Source: Curvibacter microcysteis (GTDB taxonomy: Bacteria; Pseudomonadota; Gammaproteobacteria; Burkholderiales; Burkholderiaceae_C). Taken from it: a stretch of 64,000 bases of DNA. The stretch is taken from assembly GCF_028649455.1 (NCBI RefSeq), contig NZ_JAQSIO010000008.1, forward strand, positions 1 to 64,000, written 5' to 3'. Positions 1 through 53,211 of the stretch are shown here, piece after piece; position 1 is the stretch's first letter, and every line of letters begins with the position of its first letter. The notes below the pieces were generated by a model. That model was not told where the DNA came from. It was given only the letters and a program-made list of their open reading frames with translations, and searched no databases. The translations under genes and the position numbers were made by a program.

Positions 1-71
1 ATGGCGAACTGAAGAACCCGGCCATCACCTTGTACACGTACAAGGACGGCAAGAAGGTGGCTCTGAACTGA
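1..71 (+). CDS. C-terminal end of an unidentified protein
   Basis: Only the last 22 codons of a plus-strand gene are inside the window. They begin with GEL at base 3, end in GKKVALN, and stop at TGA (69-71). The composition (Lys, Thr and Tyr, with strong G/C third positions) matches real coding sequence, and a rho-independent terminator follows 25 bases later. The fragment is too short to identify a family. It converges on the minus-strand binding-protein gene that ends at 161. Confidence 0.6.
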   Translation, partial: GELKNPAITLYTYKDGKKVALN

Positions 72-38075: not shown

Positions 38076-38103
38076 CCTATACCGCGGGGCACCGCGGTAT
38101 AGG
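38076..38103 (+). other. strong 12-bp hairpin between rpsD and rpoA
   Basis: CCTATACCGCGG (38076-38087) pairs perfectly with CCGCGGTATAGG (38092-38103) around the loop GGCA. It sits in the middle of the 105-base gap, 54 bases before the rpoA start. There is no T-run. It would be very stable in RNA, so it may stop exonucleases, attract RNase III or tune rpoA output. Confidence 0.7.
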
Positions 38104-42126: not shown

Positions 42127-43170
42127 TTATTTGGCCAGTTCAGCCTTGGTGGCTTCGTCCAGTTCGCCGGTGGCCGGCAATTGGCGCGACTTCTGGAACT
42201 TGGTCAATTCGCCCTTGGTGCGCGCGCCCATGGAGCCATCGGGCTTGCCCACGTTGAAGCCAAGCGCATTGAGCTTTTGCTGAGCCGCCTGCACGGTCAT
42301 GCCAGCGCCCGCGGCAGGGGCTGCGGCAGCGCGCGGTGCATTGGGGTTGACGCCGCCGTCCACGTTGAGTCGGCCGCCGGTGCCCAGGCCACCCTTGACG
42401 GTTTGGGCCTTGTAGTTTTGCACCGCCTTCACGATGTTGGCATACGAGTCCAGGAAGGCGGCCACGATGACCTTGCCTTCGGCTGTGTTCGTGTAGCCGC
42501 CACCCATGGCGCCGAAGCCGGCGCCGAGCATGCCGCCGAAGGCCCCGAAGTCCATGTTGCGCGCGCTGCCTTCAGCCGCGGCAATTTGCACGCTGGAGCG
42601 GTTGTCGTCCAAGGTCAGCAAGGTGCTGGCTTCCTTGGCGCTCATGTTGCCACCCACCAGGGCACCGACCGGGCCCAACAGGCCACCCACCATGGCGCCG
42701 GCGCCACCGGCGTTGTTGTTGGAGAACGTGATCGAGGGCGTCAGCGAGTAGTCGGCCGACACCATCTGGCCCTTGCCGAAATTGGAGTTGTTGCGCAGCT
42801 CACCCGACTGGGCCAGGGCTCGCTCTTGCATCATGTTGTTCATGGCGCGGCCGCGGTCCACCACGACAAAGCAGTTCGACTGCTGGATCAGGAGCTTCAA
42901 CACCGGGGTGGTCGGACCCAGGTGACGTTGCTGGGTCAGCATCACATACCAAGGTGCGTTGGTGTCTTCCACGATGGCGATCGTGCCCAGGGTCTCTTCG
43001 CAGCGCGGCAGCTTGCTGTTGGCGCCCTGGCTGTTGGCACCACCGGCCGAGCCGGTGGCTTCGGTCTTGGCCTGGGCCGAGCCGGTGTCCATGGTGGCAC
43101 AGCCCGACAGGGCGGCGAGGGTCGCGGCCAGGGCCAGCAGGGTCAGGGAAGATGGGTGAGTTTTTGCCAT
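42127..43170 (-). CDS. CsgG/HfaB-like lipoprotein with C-terminal peptidoglycan-binding domain
   Basis: A 347-residue envelope protein. The lipoprotein leader has lipobox LSGC (Cys about 23). A CsgG-like middle domain follows (VLKLLIQQSNCFVVVDRG, then a Gly-rich hydrophobic stretch GAMVGGLLGPVGALVGG). The last 70 residues form a PG_binding_1 domain (VQAAQQKLNALGFNVGKPDG with ARTKGELTKFQK). ATG 43170 is used; the longer frame above lacks a ribosome site and family match. CsgG proteins form outer-membrane secretion pores for curli, but no curli genes are nearby, so a pore or anchor function is only suggested. Confidence 0.82.
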   Translation of the reverse strand: MAKTHPSSLTLLALAATLAALSGCATMDTGSAQAKTEATGSAGGANSQGANSKLPRCEETLGTIAIVEDTNAPWYVMLTQQRHLGPTTPVLKLLIQQSNCFVVVDRGRAMNNMMQERALAQSGELRNNSNFGKGQMVSADYSLTPSITFSNNNAGGAGAMVGGLLGPVGALVGGNMSAKEASTLLTLDDNRSSVQIAAAEGSARNMDFGAFGGMLGAGFGAMGGGYTNTAEGKVIVAAFLDSYANIVKAVQNYKAQTVKGGLGTGGRLNVDGGVNPNAPRAAAAPAAGAGMTVQAAQQKLNALGFNVGKPDGSMGARTKGELTKFQKSRQLPATGELDEATKAELAK

Positions 43171-43479
43171 GTTGTAACTTTGTTGATTGAACAGAGCGAC
43201 CCTCCTCAGGTCGCCGTTGGGCACGGGCGTCGGCTCCTCCTGAATCCCTGAGCCTGACCTGGGCGCTTTCTCACGGCACGACGGTCTCTTCATCGCGGTG
43301 GCGCGCACCAGTCCACGGGCCGCAAGCGGCCTGTACCCAACTTGTAAATGCTAACCCGAGCATTTACATATTCGCAAAGTTTTGTGGCATTTGTTGTGGT
43401 GGACGAAGCCAATCCGTCGGAAACCCACCACCCTACTTCCGCCGCTTTGGCGGGGCGTGGCCCCACTGGCGGGATGCAC
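43171..43479. promoter_or_regulatory. 309-base intergenic region with a perfect 26-bp inverted repeat
   Basis: No gene was found here. The main element is TGTAAATGC (43343-43351) and GCATTTACA (43360-43368), a perfect 9-bp inverted repeat with an 8-base spacer. It is AT-rich within GC-rich surroundings and lies 173 bases upstream of the CsgG-like start. A small GC hairpin (GGGGC 43452-43456, GCCCC 43460-43464) lies just past the end of the 2-aminobenzoate operon and could slow read-through. Confidence 0.5.
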
Positions 43480-43875
43480 TCAGTCGGGTCGAACCGCGGT
43501 GACTTCGATCTCCACCTGGGCCCGGGCCTCCACCAGCGCCGCCACCTGCACGCAACTCATGGCGGGGAAATGGCGGCCCATCACCTCACGGTAGACCGCG
43601 CCCAACTCGCGCAGACGGGCGTTGTACTCGTCGCGGTCCACGATGTACCAGGTCATGCGCACCATGTGCTCGGGGCTGGCCTGGCCCGCTTCCAGTACGG
43701 CACGCACGTTGAGCAGCGCCTGCCGGGTCTGGGCGATGAAGTCGTCGCTCTCAAACTGTTGGTCGGCGTTCCAACCGATCTGGCCGCCGACAAAAATCAT
43801 CGTGCCTCGGGCGGCCACGCCATTGGCATAGCCCTTGGGGGCGGCCCAGCCGGGCGGTTGCAGGTGCTCGATCAT
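43480..43875 (-). CDS. RidA-family (YjgF/YER057c/UK114) protein
   Basis: A 131-residue Rid-family protein. RidA proteins are trimers that hydrolyse reactive enamines/imines to ketones and ammonia. Conserved parts include FVGGQIGWNADQQFESDDFIAQ and VRMTWYIVDRDEYNARLRELG. It is the last gene of the six-gene operon, overlapping the CoA ligase gene by four bases. Its place there suggests a specific deamination step for an enamine intermediate of 2-aminobenzoate breakdown. This is an inference. Confidence 0.88.
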   Translation of the reverse strand: MIEHLQPPGWAAPKGYANGVAARGTMIFVGGQIGWNADQQFESDDFIAQTRQALLNVRAVLEAGQASPEHMVRMTWYIVDRDEYNARLRELGAVYREVMGRHFPAMSCVQVAALVEARAQVEIEVTAVRPD

Positions 43876-45542
43876 GGCGCGGGGTTCCTCAGTTTGAAGC
43901 GTTGCAGTTTGCCGGTCTCGGTGCGGGGCAGGCTGCTGCGAAATTCGATCTGGCGCGGGTACTTGTAGGGGGCGATGCTGGCCTTGACGTGGTCCTGCAG
44001 CACCCGCACCAGGGCCGCGTCACCGACCTGGCCGGGGCGCAGCACGCAAAAGGCCTTGACCACCATGCCGCGTTCCTCGTCGGGCACGCCGATGACGGCG
44101 CACTCGGCCACGGCGGGGTGGCGCATCAGGGCGTCTTCGACCTCGGGGCCGCCCACGTTGTAGCCCGCGGTGATGATCATGTCGTCATCGCGCGCCTGGT
44201 AGTAGAAGTAGCCGTCATCGTCCTCGACAAAGGCATCGCCGGGGTAGTTCCAGCTGTCCTTCACGTACTGCGTCTGGCGGGGTTCGTCCAGGTAACGGCA
44301 GCCGGTCAGGCCCGTGACGGCCAGCTTGCCGACCTGGCCGCGTGGCAGCTCGCGGCCCGAGTCGTCCACCACACGTGCCACGTAGCCCGGCACGACGCGG
44401 CCAATGGCGGTGCCGTGGGAGCTGCGCCGCACCTCGTGGGCGGGCGAGGAGATGAAGATGTGGAACATCTCGGTGGCGCCAATGCCGTCGACCAACTCCA
44501 GCCCGGTGGCCGCGTGCCAGAGCTGGCGCGTGGCCTCGGGCAAGGCCTCACCCGCACTGACACAGGCCCGCAGCGTGGGCACGCCCAGGGCCTGGGCCAC
44601 GGGCGACATCTGGCGGTAAAAGGTGGGCGCGGTGTAGCAAATCGTGGCGCCCACGTTCTGGATGGTGCGCACCATGGACTCGGGCGTGTAGCCCGCATCC
44701 GGAAAATACACCGAGGCCCCGGCCCACATCGGGAACACCAGCAGCCCGCCCAGGCCAAAGGTGAAGGCCAGCGGGGGCGAACCCAGCACGATGTCGTCGG
44801 GCGTGGCGCGCAGCACATGGCGCGGCCAGGCCTCGCAAGCCATCAGCACATCGCGGTGGGTGTGGACCGCCGCCTTGGGGCGGCCGGTGGTGCCGGAGGT
44901 GAAGGCCAGCAAAGCCACATCCGTGGCGGCTGTGGGGCAGGGCGTGAAATGATCAGGCTGCCCGGCCACCAGCGCGCCCAGGTCCTGCGGGTCGCCTGCG
45001 GCGCCAAAGCACACGATGCGGCGCAGCACCGGGTGCTCGGCCTGGGCCTGGGCCAATTCATCGACCAAGCGGGCGTCGCACAAGGCCAGCACGGGCAGGG
45101 CCTTGTCGATGATGTCACCCAGTTCCCGCGCACGCAGCAACGGCATGCTGGCCACCGCGATGCCGCCCGCCTTGACCACGGCCAGCCAGGCCAGGGCCAT
45201 GCCGATCGAGTTGCCGCCGCGCAGCAGCACGCGCTGCCCTGGCACCAGGTCGGCCTCGCGGCACAGCCAATGGGCGATTCGGTCGACCCGCTGACGCACC
45301 TCGGCATAGCTCAGGGTGAGGTGGGCCGAGCGCAACAAGGGGCGCGGGCCCCAGCCGCGCAGGGCGGCCTTGTCCAGCAGTTCTTCCACCAGGTTCAGCT
45401 GGCCGCCCAGGGGCAGGTCGGGCAAGTCGTAGTGCAGGCGCGGCCACTGCGCGGGGGGCGGCAGGCGGTCGTGCACAAAGCGGTCGAGTTGGGCGCTGGG
45501 CGCGCTGTGCTCGGGCGATGGGGTGGGGGTGGGCGTGGCCAT
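43872..45542 (-). CDS. abmG: 2-aminobenzoate-CoA ligase (benzoate-CoA ligase family)
   Basis: A 556-residue acyl-adenylate-forming enzyme that would activate 2-aminobenzoate (anthranilate) with ATP and CoA. The phosphate loop FTSGTTGRPKAAVHTH is at residues 214-229. Later motifs are SAGEALPEATRQLWHA, YQARDDDMIITAGYNVGGPEVE and the Lys-bearing end LPRTETGKLQRF. Benzoate-CoA ligase is the nearest alternative, but the neighbouring monooxygenase/reductase makes the 2-aminobenzoate assignment more likely. Three bases separate it from the acyl-CoA dehydrogenase gene. Confidence 0.88.
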   Translation of the reverse strand: MATPTPTPSPEHSAPSAQLDRFVHDRLPPPAQWPRLHYDLPDLPLGGQLNLVEELLDKAALRGWGPRPLLRSAHLTLSYAEVRQRVDRIAHWLCREADLVPGQRVLLRGGNSIGMALAWLAVVKAGGIAVASMPLLRARELGDIIDKALPVLALCDARLVDELAQAQAEHPVLRRIVCFGAAGDPQDLGALVAGQPDHFTPCPTAATDVALLAFTSGTTGRPKAAVHTHRDVLMACEAWPRHVLRATPDDIVLGSPPLAFTFGLGGLLVFPMWAGASVYFPDAGYTPESMVRTIQNVGATICYTAPTFYRQMSPVAQALGVPTLRACVSAGEALPEATRQLWHAATGLELVDGIGATEMFHIFISSPAHEVRRSSHGTAIGRVVPGYVARVVDDSGRELPRGQVGKLAVTGLTGCRYLDEPRQTQYVKDSWNYPGDAFVEDDDGYFYYQARDDDMIITAGYNVGGPEVEDALMRHPAVAECAVIGVPDEERGMVVKAFCVLRPGQVGDAALVRVLQDHVKASIAPYKYPRQIEFRSSLPRTETGKLQRFKLRNPAP

Positions 45543-45545
45543 GGT

Positions 45546-46733
45546 TCAGCCCTGCAGTGCGGCTTTGCCGAGGATCAGTTGCTGCACCTCGGTCGCGCCT
45601 TCGTAAATGCGCAGCGCGCGGATGTCGCGGTACAGGCTCTCGACCTTGCAGCCCACCTGCACGCCGCGCCCGCCGTGCATTTGCAGCGCCATGTCGATCA
45701 CGCGTTGGGCGTTTTCGGTGGCCACCATCTTGGCGCAGGCCGCCGCCTGGGTGCGTTCAGCCTGGGGTGCGCCGGTGTCGCGCAGCCAGGCCGCGCGGTA
45801 GGTCAGCAGGGCACCGGCCTCGATCAGGGCGCTCATCTCGCCGAGCTTGGCCTGCGTCAGCTGGAAGTCGGCCAGGGTGGCGCCAAACATGCGGCGCTGA
45901 CGCGCGTGCGCCACCGCCTCGGCCAGGGCACGACGCGCCATGCCCAGGGCCGCCGCCGCCACCGAGGGGCGGAAGATGTCCAGCGTCTGCAAAGCCAGTT
46001 TGAAGCCGCCGCCGGCCTCGCCCAGCAAGGCCTCGGTGCCGACCTCGCAGCCCTCAAAGCGCAGCGTGGCCAGCGGGTGTGGGGCCATCACCTGCAGGTG
46101 TTCGTGATCGTCCAGGCCGGGCGTTCCGGCCTCCACCACCAGGGCGGACAGGCCGCGTGTGCCCGGGGCTTCGCCGGTGCGGGCGAAGACGCAGTAAAAG
46201 TCCGCCAGGCCGCCGTTGCTGATCCAGGTCTTGACGCCGTTCAGGCGGTAGCGGGCCGGACCGGCCAGGGTGGCTTCGGTGGCGATGGCGGCCACGTCCG
46301 AGCCGGCCTCGGGTTCGGTCAGGGCAAAAGCGGCGATCTTCTCGCCACGCGCCACGGCCGGCAGCCAGCGCGCCTGTTGGGCGGGGCTGCCCGCCAGCGT
46401 GATGGCGCCACTGCCCAGGCCCTGCATGGCGAAGGCAAAGTCGGCCAGCGGCGAGTGAAACGCCAGCGTTTCGCGCAGCAGCACCAGGGCCCGCGAGTCG
46501 AGCTGTGCCAGTGCCCCGCCATGGGCCGCGGGCACGCAGTAGCGCAGCCAGCCGGCCTGGCCCAGGCGCTGCACCCAGTCGCGGCAAGCGGCGCGGTCGT
46601 CGCCCTCGTCCACCTGCTGGGCCTCGGTCCAGGGCAGCAGCTCGGCCACCAGCGTGCGGTGCGCCGCGTCAAAAAAAGGCAGACCCAGGTGCTGGGTGTT
46701 GGGCCGCGCGGGCCAAGGGGCGGGGTGCTGCAT
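45546..46733 (-). CDS. acyl-CoA dehydrogenase
   Basis: A 395-residue FAD acyl-CoA dehydrogenase. Typical blocks are [18 protein letters not shown] (FAD and substrate site), the middle beta domain [19 protein letters not shown], and the C-terminal [19 protein letters not shown] with IYEGATEVQ. In this operon it should act in the beta-oxidation-like steps on the reduced ring or opened chain of the CoA ester. The next gene upstream is one base away. Confidence 0.93.
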
Positions 46734-46734
46734 C

Positions 46735-47585
<851 letters not shown>

Positions 47586-47589
<4 letters not shown>

Positions 47590-48080
47590 GGGGTCTCCGG
47601 GTCAGGTTCGGGGGTTTGGGCTTGGGCTTTGACCTTGCCCAGCAGGCGGTGCAGGGTGCTGACTTCGCGTTCGCTGAGGGCGCTCAAGGCGTCGACGATC
47701 CAGCCTTCGTGCTCGCGCGCCATGGCGTGGAATTGCTCGCGCCCCTGTGCGGTCAGGCGCACGCGGTAGGCGCGGCGGTCGTCAGGGACTTCGACGCGCT
47801 CCACCAGTTGCTCGGCCACCAGTTGGTCGGTGATGCCGGTCACATTGCCACCGGTCACCATCAGGCGCCGCGACAGGTCTTTCATCTTCAGACCCTCGGG
47901 CTCGCGCTCGAGTTGGGCCATCAGGTCAAAGCGCGGCAAGGTGGTGTCAAAGCGTTCACGCAGGCGGCTGCGCACCTGCTTTTCGATCAATTGCGTGCAG
48001 GTCAGCAGGCGCAGCCAGAGGCGCAAAGCCTCGGGGTGCTCGCTGGGGGCGCTGTCTTGGAGACGGGCTTCCAGGTCCAT
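47586..48080 (-). CDS. MarR-family transcriptional regulator of the 2-aminobenzoate operon
   Basis: A 164-residue MarR protein with winged helix ([20 protein letters not shown], then [22 protein letters not shown], and the wing [15 protein letters not shown]). ATG 48080 is chosen as it starts 2 bases after the monooxygenase stop and gives the normal length; the longer frame is a shadow of that gene. It probably binds the 24-bp operator at 50475-50498 and is released by the substrate or its CoA ester, as known for other MarR proteins of aromatic pathways. Confidence 0.92.
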
Positions 48081-48082
48081 GG

Positions 48083-50470
48083 TCAGTGGTCTTCTTTGGG
48101 GGCCGGTGGCCGGTTGGCGGCCTCGGCCTGGCTTTGTTTGAGTTGCTCGCGGTAGAGCTGGTCGCGCCCGCTCCAGTACGCGCGTGGCCAGTCCACGGCG
48201 GGGCTGACCGTGCATTGCTGGCGCGCGGCCTGGTGCAGCGTCCAGGCCGGGTCGGCCAGGTGCGGGCGGGCCACCGCGCACAGGTCGGCGCGGCCGGCGG
48301 CGATGATGCTGTTGGCCTGATCGGCGTCGGTGATGGCGCCCACGGCGATGGTCAGGATGCCGGCCTCGTTGCGGATGCGGTCGGCAAACGGCGTTTGGTA
48401 CATGCGGCCATAGACTGGCTTGGCGGCCCGCGAGGTCTGGCCCGAGGAGACGTCAATCACATCGCAGCCGGCGGCCTTGAACAGGCGGGCGATGGCCACG
48501 GCCTCGTCGGGCGTGGTGCCGCCATCCACCCAGTCGTGGGCGGACAGGCGCACGCTCATGGGGCGCTCGGCAGGCCAGGCGGCGCGCATGGCGGAAAACA
48601 CCTCCAGCGGGAAGCGGCAGCGGTTCTCCAGCGAGCCGCCGTAGGCGTCCTGGCGCTGGTTGCTCAAGGGGCTGATGAAGGCGCTGAGCAGGTAGCCGTG
48701 GGCCGCGTGCAGCTCCAGCCAGTCAAAGCCGATGGCCGCAGCGCGCCGGGTGGCGGCCACGAACTCGTCGCGCACCCGGGCCATGTCGGCCGCGGTCATG
48801 GCCTGCGGGGTTTGGTTTTGTGCGCCATAGGGCAGGGCGCTGGCGCCCAACAGGGGCCAGTTGGGGGCGGCGTCGGGCGCGCCGCTGGCGCTGGGCAGGG
48901 GCTCGTCGGTGGCTTCCCAGCCGCGCTGGGTCGAGCCCTTGGGACCGGCATGGCCCAGCTGCACCCCGATCAGGGCGCTGCTCTGGCCGTGCACAAAGTC
49001 CACGACGCGGCGCCAGGCCTGGGCTTGCGCGTCGTTCCACAGGCCGGGGCAGCCCAGGGTGATGCGGCCATCGGGGCTGGGGCTGGTCATCTCCACCATC
49101 ACCAAGGCGGCGCCACCCAGCGCACGCGCGCCCAGGTGCACCAGGTGAAAGTCCTGCACCAGGCCGTCCACCGCGCTGTAGGTGGCCATGGGCGAGACCA
49201 CGATGCGGTTTTTCAGGCGAGCGCTGCGCACTGACAGCGGGGTGAACATGGGCGGCACGGCCTGCGCCGGGGCGCCGCTGCGCTGGGCCAGCCAGGTCTC
49301 GTAGCCGGCGATCCACTGCGGGTCGCGCAGGCGCAGGTTGTCGTGGCTGATGCGCTGTGAGCGCGTCAGCAGCGAGTAGCTGAACTGCTCGATCTCCATG
49401 CCGCTGTAGCGCGACACGTTCTCGAACCACTCGGTCGAGTTGCGCGCCGCGTTCTGGATCTTCAGCACCTCCACGCTGCGCCGCGCCTGGTACTGCTGCA
49501 GCACCTCGCTTACCGAGGCGCCGCTGTCGGCGGCCGCTGCGAACGTGTCGGCCAGGTCGATGGCGTCTTCCAGCGCGAGCTTGCTGCCGCTGCCGATCGA
49601 GAAGTGCGCGGTGTGGGCGGCGTCGCCCATCAGCACCACGGGCCAGGCGCGGTCCGGGCCCTGCACCTCGTGCACCCAGTTCTGGCAGATCACGCGCGGG
49701 AAGTTGATCCAGATCGCCGAGCCGCGCAGGTGCTTGGCGTTGCTGATCAATGCGTGGCCGTCCAGGTAGCGCGCGAACAGGCGCTCGCAAAAAGCCACGC
49801 CTTCTTCTTGCGACATCTGGTCCAGGCCGTGCGCCTTCCAGACCGCTTCAGGGGTTTCGACAATGAAGGTCGAGGTGTCGGCGTTGAACTTGTAGGCATG
49901 GGCCTGGAACCAGCCGTGCTCGGTCTCTTCGAACGCGAAGGTGAAGGCGTCAAAGGTCTTCTTGGTGCCCAGCCAGACAAAGCGGCAGCGCCGGGTGTCG
50001 ATGTCGGGCTGGAAGGTGTCGGCGTAGCGCGTGCGGATGCGGCTGTTGAGCCCGTCGCTGGCGATCACCAGGTCGGCCTGGTACTGCGCGGCCAGAGTCT
50101 GGTCGTCCTGCACATCGCACTCGAACACCAAGTCCACCCCCAGGGCTTGGCAACGGTCCTGCAGGATGTTGAGCAGGTGCTTGCGCCCAATGCCGCAAAA
50201 GCCGTGGCCGGTGGAGCGCTGGCTGCGGCCTTTGAAAAACACCTCGATGTCGTCCCAGTGGTTGAAGGCGTCGCCAATCAGTTGGGCACTGGGTGCGTCG
50301 GCGGCGCGCAGTTTGTCCAGGGTTTGGTCGCTCAGCACCACGCCCCAGCCAAAGGTGTCGTAGGGGCGGTTGCGCTCCACAACGGTGACGCGGTGCGCCG
50401 GGTTCTGCTGCTTCATGAGCAGGGCGAAGTAGAGTCCGGCGGGCCCACCGCCAATGCAGAGGATGTTCAT
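48083..50470 (-). CDS. abmA: 2-aminobenzoyl-CoA monooxygenase/reductase (salicylyl-CoA 5-hydroxylase-like fusion)
   Basis: A 795-residue fusion. Residues 1-400 are a class A flavin monooxygenase ([22 protein letters not shown] ribityl block [18 protein letters not shown]). From about residue 407 an old-yellow-enzyme reductase follows ([20 protein letters not shown], then [19 protein letters not shown]). This pairing hydroxylates and reduces 2-aminobenzoyl-CoA to a non-aromatic product, the key step of the aerobic CoA pathway known from Azoarcus evansii. It is the first gene of the operon, with the MarR operator immediately upstream of its ATG. Confidence 0.92.
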
Positions 50471-50474
50471 GTGG

Positions 50475-50498
50475 AAATAGTTTAGGTCTAAACTATTT
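50475..50498. promoter_or_regulatory. 24-bp perfect operator for the MarR regulator
   Basis: AAATAGTTTAG (50475-50485) and CTAAACTATTT (50488-50498) form a perfect 11-bp inverted repeat around two bases, ending five bases from the abmA start codon. Its size and AT content are typical of MarR sites. It covers the predicted -10 and spacer. Confidence 0.75.
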
Positions 50499-50506
50499 CT
50501 CAACAA
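50479..50506 (-). promoter_or_regulatory. predicted promoter of the 2-aminobenzoate operon
   Basis: On the minus strand TTGTTG (50501-50506) and TAAACT (50479-50484) are 16 bases apart. Initiation 6-8 bases after the -10 would fall at the abmA ATG (50470), giving a leaderless or nearly leaderless mRNA. In agreement, no Shine-Dalgarno sequence is visible. Confidence 0.5.
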
Positions 50507-50615
50507 TAGGGTTTGCCTGGGGGCCGTGTCAGGGACGGTGTCCCGGCCGCCAGACACGGCGCGGCAATGGGTGCAGAATTAAGCGGCTGCGGCCCTGCGC
50601 CGCCAGGAAGACGTG

Positions 50616-50939
50616 ATGCTTTACAAGTTCAAATCCAAATCGACCGCCGACCTGATCATGCTCGAGCCCAACGGGCGCCGGGTGCTGGAGATCATTGGCA
50701 AGACGCCAGGCCCGCAAGGCATTGTGTTGGCCTCGCAAATCGCCGCTGCGCTGGGGGCTTTGGAGTCGGCGCTGGCGGCCGAAGATGCACTGGCCGCCCA
50801 GGCGCGAGCAGAGTCGCCCGAGGAAGACGAGGACAGCCAGCGCTCAGCCGCGGTGTCGCTGCGCCAGCGCGTGGCGCCCTTCATGGACATGCTGCGCCGC
50901 AGCGAGGCCGAAGGCCACGATGTGACCTGGGGCGTTTGA
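50616..50939 (+). CDS. DUF1840 family protein
   Basis: A 107-residue protein of the DUF1840 family, common in betaproteobacteria and of unknown function. It begins MLYKFKSKSTADLIML and ends with EGHDVTWGV; the middle is Ala/Glu-rich and helical. ATG 50616 follows AGGAAG at five bases; a GTG just before (50613) is less likely. It is transcribed alone, divergent from abmA. Confidence 0.85.
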   Translation: MLYKFKSKSTADLIMLEPNGRRVLEIIGKTPGPQGIVLASQIAAALGALESALAAEDALAAQARAESPEEDEDSQRSAAVSLRQRVAPFMDMLRRSEAEGHDVTWGV

Positions 50940-50980
50940 GCCCCCGATCAGGCGCCCACGCAGGCGCGGGCCTGCGCGCT

Positions 50981-52051
50981 TCAGTCGACCTTGGCGCCCG
51001 AGGTCTTGACCACCTGGGCCCACTTCTTGTGTTCGCTGTCGATGAGCTTGGCGAACTCGGCCGGTGTGATGCCGCTGGGGATGGCGCCTTGGGCCAGCAG
51101 CTTTTCTTTGACTGCGGGGCTGGCCAGTGACTTGGCCACTTCTTGCTGAATGCGGTTGATCACCTCGGGCGGGGTGCCGGCTGGGGCCAGCAGGCCGAAC
51201 CAGGAGCTGGCGTCAAAGCCTTTCAGGCTGGGGCCGCCGGCCTCGGCCAGGGTGGGCACATCCGGCAGGGCCGGCGAGCGCTGGGCGCTGGTCACGGCCA
51301 GGGCCTTGAGCTTGCCCGCCTTGATCTGCGGCATGGCCGAGGGCAGGTTGTCGAACATCACGTCCATGTTGCCGCCCACCAGGTCCATCAGAGCGGGGCC
51401 TGAGCCGCGGTAGGGAAAGTGGATCAAGTAGGTGCCCGTCATGCTTTTGAACAGCTCACCCGCCAGGTGGATCGAGGTGCCGTTGCCGCTGGACGCCATG
51501 TTCAGCTTGCCCGGGCTGGCCTTGGCCACTTTGATGAAGTCCTGCACGGTGTTGATCTTCAGCTCGCGTGCCTTGTCGGGGTTGACCACCATGACGTTGG
51601 GCACTGCCGCCACCAGGGAGATGGGGGCGAAGTCCTTGATCGGGTCGAAGGGCATTTTTTCATACAGCGCGCGGTTGATGCCGTGCGTGCCCACCGTGCC
51701 CATCAGCAGGGTGTAGCCGTCAGCCGGCGCCTTGGCCACCATGTCGGCGCCCACGTTGCCGCCGGCGCCGGCGCGGTTGTCCACCACAAAAGCTTGGCCG
51801 AAGGCTTTTTGCAGTTCGACCGCCATGGCCCGGCCCAGCAAGTCGGTGGTGCCGCCCGCCGCAAAGGGCACGACGATGCGCACCGGCTTGGTTGGCCAGG
51901 TGCTTTGCGCCAGGGCCGAACTGGTGGCCAGCCCACCCAGGCCTGCTGCCACCAGGGCCAGGCCCAGCGGTGCGCGCAGCCATTGGCGGCGGGAGGCAGA
52001 TTGGACGGAAGCGCCGGTCGTGGCGCCGAACGAATGGGGGTGAGAAGTCAT
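50981..52051 (-). CDS. Bug/TctC-family extracytoplasmic solute-binding protein
   Basis: A 356-residue periplasmic binding protein of the Bug family. The leader has [11 protein letters not shown], Tat-like, ending in SALAQ. The mature part starts [19 protein letters not shown], followed by [21 protein letters not shown], both diagnostic. ATG 52051 with GGAGA upstream is preferred to ATG 52063. There are no TctA/TctB membrane genes beside it, as with most Bug proteins. The ligand (often a carboxylate) is unknown. Confidence 0.92.
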
Positions 52052-52171
52052 GCAGGTCTCCATGGGCTCACCGGCGGGTGCCGGAGGCAGTTTTTTGTTT
52101 CAGGTCTTCACTCTAACCCGCCCACCCGCCGAGGATGTTGAGGGAATCCCGGTTCAGCGTGCGGGGGGGCG

Positions 52172-52208
52172 AAAAAAAACCGCCAACCTCTGGTGAGGCT
52201 TGGCGGTT
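52172..52208 (-). terminator. rho-independent terminator of the second Bug gene
   Basis: Read on the minus strand, AACCGCCAA (52200-52208) pairs perfectly with TTGGCGGTT (52178-52186) and is followed by a run of eight T (52172-52179, overlapping the stem end). It lies 26 bases after the stop at 52234. Confidence 0.92.
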
Positions 52209-52233
52209 GGGCTGGATCAGCGCAGGGGGATCA

Positions 52234-53211
52234 TCAGTCGGCGTAAACGCCTGCGGCCTTGATGATGGGGGTCCACTTGGCAATTTCAGCTTGCACGAAC
52301 TTCTTGTGCTCGGCTGGCTCGATGCGCTTGTCGGTGGCCACCACGGCGCCCAGGGCTTCTTCCTTCTTGATGAAGTCCGGGTCTTTCAGCGCTGCCTTGA
52401 GGGCGGTGCTGATCTTGGCCAGCACGTCGGCGGGCGTGCCCTTGGGGGCGTACAGGCCGTGCCAGATGGTGATCTGGAAGTCCTTCACGCCGGACTCGGC
52501 CAGCGTGGGCAGGTCCTTCAGCGAGGGGGTGCTCAGGCGCTTGGGCGTGGTGACGGCGAAGGCCTTGACCTTCTTGCCTTCGATCTGGCTGCTGGTGTTG
52601 GTGGTCTGGTCACACAGCAGGTCGATCTGGCCGCCAATCAGGTCAGTGATGGCCGGGGCCGTGCCTTTGTAGGGCACGGTGGTCATGTCGGTTTCGATGG
52701 CGTTTTGGTAGAGCAGGCCGCACAGGTGCGAAGCCGAGCCCACACCGGCATTGCCCAGGTTGATCTTGCCCTTGTTTTGGGCAATCCAGGCGCTCAGCTC
52801 TTTGTAGTTGTTGGCCGGCATGCTGGGCTTGGCGATCAGGGTCATGGGCACGTCGTTGATGATGCCCAGGTACTCAAAGTCGCTTTCCACCTTGAACGGC
52901 AGGTTGCGCACCAGCGCGGGCATGGTGGCCATGCCGATGTGGTTGACCAGCAGGGTGTGGCCGTCCGGGGTGGCGCGGGCCACTTTGGCCGAGCCGATGG
53001 AGCTGCCTGCACCGGCGGCATTCTCGATCACGACAGAGGTGCCCAGTTGCTTGCGCAGGGCTTCGGACAGGTCACGCGCCACGCGGTCGGTGGGGCCACC
53101 AGCCGAGAAGGGCACCACCAGGGTGATGGGCTTGTCCTTCAGGGGGTAGTCGGTGGCCAGGGCGTTCCAGGCCATGCTCAGCATCGCAGCCAGGGTGAGC
53201 AGTTTCTTCAT
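52234..53211 (-). CDS. Bug/TctC-family extracytoplasmic solute-binding protein
   Basis: A 325-residue second Bug protein. The signal peptide MKKLLTLAAMLSMAWNALA is followed by ITLVVPFSAGGPTDRVAR and AGSSIGSAKVARATPDGHTLL. GGAGACACC precedes ATG 53211. It is about as long as the family mean, differs clearly from its neighbour and has its own terminator, so the two are separate transcription units. Confidence 0.93.
   Translation of the reverse strand: MKKLLTLAAMLSMAWNALATDYPLKDKPITLVVPFSAGGPTDRVARDLSEALRKQLGTSVVIENAAGAGSSIGSAKVARATPDGHTLLVNHIGMATMPALVRNLPFKVESDFEYLGIINDVPMTLIAKPSMPANNYKELSAWIAQNKGKINLGNAGVGSASHLCGLLYQNAIETDMTTVPYKGTAPAITDLIGGQIDLLCDQTTNTSSQIEGKKVKAFAVTTPKRLSTPSLKDLPTLAESGVKDFQITIWHGLYAPKGTPADVLAKISTALKAALKDPDFIKKEEALGAVVATDKRIEPAEHKKFVQAEIAKWTPIIKAAGVYAD

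Follow-up and report, generated by a model that had tools for sequence, protein, structure and literature searches.

We find that the abmA gene is preceded by a σ70-type promoter that is covered by a perfect palindrome. We consider it probable that a MarR protein represses the promoter at this palindrome and that the transcript begins 0–2 nt from the abmA AUG, so that the mRNA would be leaderless or almost so. Comparison with the sequences of related operons establishes the layout of the promoter, its spacing to the ATG, the absence of a Shine–Dalgarno (SD) sequence, the conservation of the dyad and the linkage of a marR gene.

Promoter, palindrome and gene order at abmA

The window, that is the whole 64,000-nt stretch of DNA that was analysed, carries the following features.

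50503–50532, minus strand: rival promoter-like site CTGACA-18-TATTGT, potential leader of about 26 nt; −35 not kept in sister genome L003
50501–50506, minus strand: −35 position, TTGTTG in the window; exact TTGACA in 46/68 leaderless sister operons
50474–50499, no strand: palindrome, a perfect 12-2-12 repeat and predicted MarR operator; its dyad bases do not vary among relatives
50479–50484, minus strand: −10 hexamer TAAACT, part of the right palindrome arm; 1.91 bits per column over 59 aligned loci
50468–50472, minus strand: predicted transcription start region (0–2 nt before the A of the ATG) and start codon, deduced from the 8-nt spacing between −10 and ATG
48083–50470, minus strand: abmA, flavin monooxygenase/old-yellow-enzyme fusion of 795 aa (NF006101, 1347 bits, cut-off 1078)
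47586–48080, minus strand: marR, second operon gene, predicted repressor (Pfam MarR_2 and MarR above cut-off)
46735–47589, minus strand: enoyl-CoA hydratase family protein (NF006107, 503 bits, cut-off 330)
45546–46733, minus strand: acyl-CoA dehydrogenase-like protein (22 families matched, none above its own cut-off)
43872–45542, minus strand: benzoate/2-aminobenzoate-CoA ligase-like protein (TIGR02262, 347 bits, under the cut-off of 375)
43480–43875, minus strand: RidA-type protein (Endoribonuclease L-PSP family), last of the compact run (PF01042, 83 bits, cut-off 27.3)

The six genes from abmA to that of the RidA-type protein all lie on the minus strand and follow each other almost without gaps, with marR directly behind abmA. 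The NCBIfam model passed by AbmA is named bifunctional salicylyl-CoA 5-hydroxylase/oxidoreductase, and the ligase-like protein of the run resembles benzoate-CoA ligases at a score below cut-off. The run appears to be an anthranilate-type degradation operon, the abm names being taken from the sequence-only reading that preceded this work and the sequence itself not separating anthranilate from salicylate as the substrate. The MarR protein scores 44.7 bits against Pfam MarR_2 (cut-off 27), and its best PDB chain is 3boq (2e-19). On the plus strand a DUF1840 gene (50613–50939; PF08895, 106 bits) diverges from abmA; its promoter may lie in the 142 nt that separate the two gene starts. A search of 43000–52500 for Rfam families gave none at threshold.

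The palindrome reads GAAATAGTTTAG-GT-CTAAACTATTTC. It had been described as a perfect 11-2-11 repeat ending five bases from the abmA ATG. Perfect it is, but 11-2-11 is only the inner part of a 12-2-12 repeat, and the gap to the ATG (50470–50468, minus strand) measures 3 nt, with CAC in between on the minus strand. The overlap with the −10 was correctly seen: TAAACT lies inside the right arm, where (at 50484–50479, minus strand) it is 8 nt ahead of the ATG and is separated from the upstream TTGTTG by 16 nt. The start of transcription had been put at the ATG; a position near the ATG stands, the exact one does not, as the predicted start falls 0–2 nt before the A and not necessarily at the ATG. 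Allowing up to 3 mismatches, the 26-mer is single-copy in the window (0/100 shuffles) and its 20-mer core occurs in one place in the 4.82 Mb genome. Three inverted repeats with perfect 12-nt arms and spacers of 0–8 nt are found in the window, compared with 0.05 per 64 kb expected from 40 first-order Markov simulations, and the abmA palindrome is the only one of the three with a 2-nt spacer. The other two, at 38076 and 39796, are perfect 12-4-12 repeats, likewise above chance, and are possibly terminators.

Distance from the promoter to the start codon in relatives

AbmA homologues were found in 175 of 299 genomes of the family to which the organism of the window belongs. We collected 190 loci, made up of the 110 best-scoring listed matches (30 + 80) and 80 from a scan of named species in which 80 loci were kept out of at least 588 confirmed; 11 of the 190 were duplicates, leaving 179 distinct loci. 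Within the stretch of sequence covered at each locus, a MarR homologue was found in 170 of the 190, in four cases upstream on the other strand. Using limits of our own choosing (at least 60% MarR identity for the near subtype, and no more than 2.7 kb from the abmA start for a close MarR gene), the distinct loci divide into 93 with the near subtype, 66 with a more distant subtype and 20 without a MarR match, and 90 of the 93 have their MarR gene within 2.7 kb. Three loci of the near subtype with a MarR gene further away (L164, L187 and L188) were left out, and three others (L108, L076 and L087) are ambiguous.

In these 90 sister operons the distance from −10 to ATG, counted to the closest ATG that follows the −10 by 5 nt or more, with only ATG considered as a start, as it is in the window, is 6–8 nt in 68 and 31–61 nt in 22, and no operon falls at 9–30 nt. 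The fraction becomes 68/93 when the three excluded loci, none of which has leaderless spacing, are included, and 68/89 without L072, which was counted as near subtype (60.7% identity) but groups with the other subtype in the tree. Two further loci with leaderless spacing, L112 and L043, lie outside the 90. The exact gaps are 6 nt (n=2), 7 nt (n=3) and 8 nt (n=63), and the 8-nt stretch itself comes in 42 versions among the 63 loci. A −35 matching TTGACA at five or six positions, with a spacing of 15–18 nt, is found in 54/68, where the −35 lies 29–31 nt from the ATG; in 14/68, including all ten rows of a Hydrogenophaga clade, the match is at four positions or fewer. A TANNNT box of the kind expected for leaderless mRNAs stands directly ahead of the start codon, at 8 nt in the window and at 6–8 nt in the 68.

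The start codon follows the promoter even where the protein is longer. Relative to the AbmA of the window, 24 of the 68 proteins (from Variovorax, Xenophilus, Hydrogenophaga and a few others) carry 5–16 extra residues before the conserved flavin-binding motif, and their ATG still lies 7–8 nt behind the −10. In 19 of these 24 genes the sequence ahead of the third conserved codon offers no alternative in-frame start (ATG, GTG or TTG). Provided that transcription uses the conserved promoter, a start elsewhere in the extended genes is hardly possible, and their transcripts must then be leaderless or nearly so.

The sequence-only reading had noted that no SD is visible at abmA, and the energy of its duplex with the anti-SD, +0.7 kcal/mol, bears this out; the other genes of the run give −1.8 (marR), −6.6 (third gene), −8.2 (fourth), −3.1 (ligase) and −6.1 kcal/mol (last gene). 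The duplex with the 16S tail has a mean energy of 0.04 kcal/mol across the 68 leaderless operons, with 0/68 at −4 or lower; the corresponding values are −3.8 and 8/22 for leadered sister operons, and −5.4 and 48/66 for operons with the distant MarR subtype. Fewer than three bases agree in place with AAGGAGGT in 65 of the 68. A C before the ATG was considered as an initiation mark and rejected, being found in 57/68 leaderless and in 19/22 and 49/64 leadered cases. We also note that Cupriavidus homologues (L165–L168, L170, L173 and L174) have long upstream regions with GGAG before the ATG and, at a greater distance, an AT-rich dyad. They gave no MarR match, two of these loci ending soon after abmA.

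The near-constant spacing in 68/90, the weak or absent SD contact and the tracking of the promoter by the ATG despite longer N-termini all support the leaderless reading first proposed for abmA. The layout is kept by many relatives and, on these comparisons, looks real.

The operon might alternatively be transcribed from the upstream CTGACA-18-TATTGT. The leader, about 26 nt long, would then hold most of the palindrome, and the leaderless look would be only apparent. This site is the sole match to a simple σ70 scan in 50201–50800 (0.0, sd 0.2, expected in shuffles), and it scores higher than the leaderless promoter, whose −35 is weak in the window (TTGTTG, 3/6). However, its own −35 is not kept in a sister genome (L003, AbmA 96% identical) that keeps the 8-nt spacing, its leader would also be without an SD, and exact TTGACA occupies the leaderless position in 46/68 sister operons. 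We regard transcription from the upstream site as unlikely. A weak −35 occurs in the window, in L003 (TTGTCG) and in the ten Hydrogenophaga-clade rows, and the palindrome of the window is the most perfect of 179. Hairpin formation by the palindrome was weighed as an argument against the 26-nt leader and set aside as weak either way. From the predicted rival start at 50496 the hairpin has 8 pairs, and the first 66 nt fold no better than shuffles (z −0.2); the full palindrome stem would form only from a start at 50502 (z −2.0).

The usual distance from −10 to +1 is 6 nt, which at abmA would place the start 2 nt before the ATG. The transcript may therefore carry a leader of 1–2 nt and be translated by ordinary SD-independent initiation, not by true leaderless initiation, a possibility that we consider real if rather doubtful. 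TA boxes lie about 12 bp before the start codon in bacterial leaderless genes (excerpt of PMC3160421), and the box of abmA begins 14 nt before it. However, a leader of this length leaves no room for SD contact, and a start-site survey counts leaders of up to 10 nt as leaderless (excerpt of PMC4603805).

The predicted operator and the linked regulator

For a measure of conservation we aligned 59 loci. All were selected to have a gap of 8 nt and a spacer of 16 nt, and these spacings are therefore themselves no evidence in the alignment. Conservation, in bits per column, is 1.43 for the −35, 0.99 for the spacer, 1.91 for the −10, 0.95 for the last 8 nt and 0.15 for the region 90–41 nt upstream of the ATG. 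Within the spacer, the bases at −25 (58/59) and at −22, −21 and −19 (59/59 each) are fixed, and they are dyad-paired with fixed bases at −8, −11, −12 and −14, in or behind the −10. Since a σ70 promoter has no need of fixed spacer bases, a dimeric protein is the likely reason. These invariant dyad bases in the promoter spacer, together with the marR gene behind abmA, support the earlier prediction of a MarR operator: a palindromic candidate operator over the promoter is kept in relatives, with a gene for a MarR-type winged-helix protein nearby.

A perfect palindrome is not a requirement; pairing of 12/12 positions is found only in the window among 179 loci, and 46/68 leaderless operons have 7 or 8 pairs. 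The mean number of dyad pairs out of 12 is 7.6 in the 68 leaderless operons, 6.8 in the 22 leadered ones, 5.6 with the other subtype and 6.7 in 23 loci that have no close near-subtype MarR, where positions were picked by a score favouring pairing and some of the 23 loci end soon after abmA. In these comparisons dyads at the operator position are not restricted to operons with a linked MarR. The combination of an operator score of at least 12 (on a consensus written after the alignments had been viewed, which biases scores towards it) with an ATG at 5–9 nt is found in 68 loci with a near-subtype MarR gene within 2.7 kb and in two others, L112 (no MarR) and L043 (other subtype).

A regulator other than the linked MarR might bind the palindrome. 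L112 has the same operator and spacing, but its 7.2 kb beginning with abmA contain no MarR homologue. Similar dyads also occur in some of the loci that lack a close MarR of the near subtype. Against this, the near-subtype gene lies within 2.7 kb in 68 loci with two exceptions, and the genome has no second copy of the palindrome; we judge another regulator quite improbable and favour the linked MarR. L112 is a Curvibacter MAG whose AbmA is 84% identical and which has the leaderless operator layout. We also looked for subtype-specific reading of the DNA by comparing 86 and 65 aligned MarR proteins of the two subtypes. They differ at four well-conserved positions, one of which (V or E at 90) is placed, by eye, where the putative recognition helix ends, and nothing firm emerged.

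Proposed regulation, precedents and distribution in the family

In the mechanism that we propose, the palindrome would serve as operator for the MarR repressor, whose gene is second in the operon, and would extend across the spacer and −10 of the σ70 promoter, which is placed such that transcription would start at the A of the abmA AUG or at most 2 nt before it. With no inducer, MarR would block RNA polymerase. Accumulation of an aromatic acid or its CoA thioester would release MarR; 2-aminobenzoyl-CoA is the inducer suggested by the sequence-only reading. The polycistronic mRNA then made would have no leader or almost none, and translation of its first gene, an enzyme, would start without SD contact. 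We infer the 5' end, the binding of MarR, repression, the inducer, a single transcript of all six genes and initiation of the leaderless type. Since 22/90 operons of the same subtype have a longer distance from −10 to ATG, leaderlessness is not essential for the regulation.

We followed the leaderless and leadered states on a tree of 102 AbmA proteins, the 90 plus 12 outgroup rows, made by a quick method with a simple model. The outgroup rows were hand-picked from 66, and one of them did not group cleanly with the outgroup. The states require at least 4 changes, 3 of them forced by well-supported branches, compared with 28.7 when labels are shuffled; this count does not separate gain from loss. 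All sampled members of Acidovorax, Pseudorhodoferax, Variovorax with Xenophilus, Hydrogenophaga and the lineage of the window are leaderless. By contrast, every row is leadered in a clade of 13, ten of which carry the name Polaromonas, with the same kind of operator and regulator; the ATG in Polaromonas lies 31–37 nt behind the −10. Both states are found in another clade, of nine rows.

We counted 271 matches to the pattern TTGACA-15..18-TANNNT-5..8-ATG in 120 genomes of the family, compared with 44 for the reversed pattern; with the ATG 17–20 nt away the counts are 118 and 52. Leaderless starts thus seem to form a genuine minority class in the family. A looser form of the pattern has 20 matches in the genome of the window and 11 when reversed, and the one exact match in this genome is ahead of another MarR gene (Pfam MarR). 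This second MarR gene (L192/L241, contig C10:10959–11521) has TTGACA-17-TAATAT-6-ATG, and the spacer between its −35 and −10 carries a palindrome different from that of abmA, the dyad TTTGC-4-GCAAA. At the threshold used it is present in 35 of the 120 genomes, and its leaderless layout is found in 19/30 loci, the own genome included (exact TTGACA in 15/19), by a pattern that allowed any −35 and was written after the sequences had been viewed. In five other genomes of the family (G041, G047, G076, G082 and G114) a leaderless-type promoter has a TAGACCGACCGGTCTA-like palindrome in its spacer, which we take to resemble NemR boxes; the genes are perhaps autoregulated and TetR-type. Outside the family, the operator-plus-ATG pattern gave 59 listed places and about 86 reversed (both hand-counted) in a draw of 274 genomes of the class, three of them from the family of the window, and so gave no indication of the design there.

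We offer tentatively, as something less likely than its opposite, that repressor-controlled leaderless promoters recur in the family, with operator, promoter, transcription start site and start codon forming one conserved unit in which the start codon evolves with the promoter and not with the protein. The second MarR gene has the same layout in 19/30 loci, and abmA would extend the design from autoregulated repressors to a catabolic enzyme.

The promoters of lambda cI and Tn1721 tetR are under repressor control. Both genes are leaderless but encode repressors needed in small amounts (cited in PMC3017554, excerpt), and verified leaderless mRNAs in Proteobacteria mostly code for such regulators (same excerpt). 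The closest precedent of the abmA layout is the acuR-acuI-dddL operon of Rhodobacter sphaeroides, in which the start mapped by 5' RACE is exactly at the AUG of the first gene, without an SD, and similar layouts are predicted in other lineages (excerpt of PMC3017554). It resembles abm in being a catabolic operon with an inverted-repeat operator over the promoter and a repressor encoded within, but its leaderless first gene is a TetR-family repressor that is translated less than the next genes (same excerpt), whereas the abm operon has the enzyme gene abmA first, a predicted MarR repressor second and another operator sequence. Leaderless genes of beta-proteobacteria have a TANNNT box just ahead of the start codon and no SD (excerpts of PMC3160421 and PMC4603805), about 2 nt closer to the start codon than the box of abmA. 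In Burkholderia cenocepacia transcription begins precisely at the annotated start in 72 genes and within 10 nt of it in another 42, and the 114 include 24 tRNAs (excerpt of PMC4603805); transcription regulators are over-represented (28 CDS) in the excerpted account of such genes, whereas abmA encodes a large enzyme. IacR is similarly a MarR-family repressor of a catabolic locus, with an operator upstream of the controlled genes and release by ligand, but its locus concerns other substrates and enzymes (excerpt of PMC9613470). Leaderless genes with a TANNNT box and a leaderless catabolic operon whose repressor acts at an overlapping inverted repeat are thus already known, and the predicted leaderless enzyme gene is the difference. 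A search of the open-access literature found no report of a leaderless abm operon.

A catabolic enzyme gene predicted to be leaderless in several genera of one family, beside a leadered one in the sampled Polaromonas with the same kind of operator and regulator, constitutes a natural experiment in which the effect of a leaderless start on the expression and timing of an inducible pathway is directly testable. For gene calling, the start codon of abmA seems to be set by the promoter, and the N-termini of the protein hence differ between genera.
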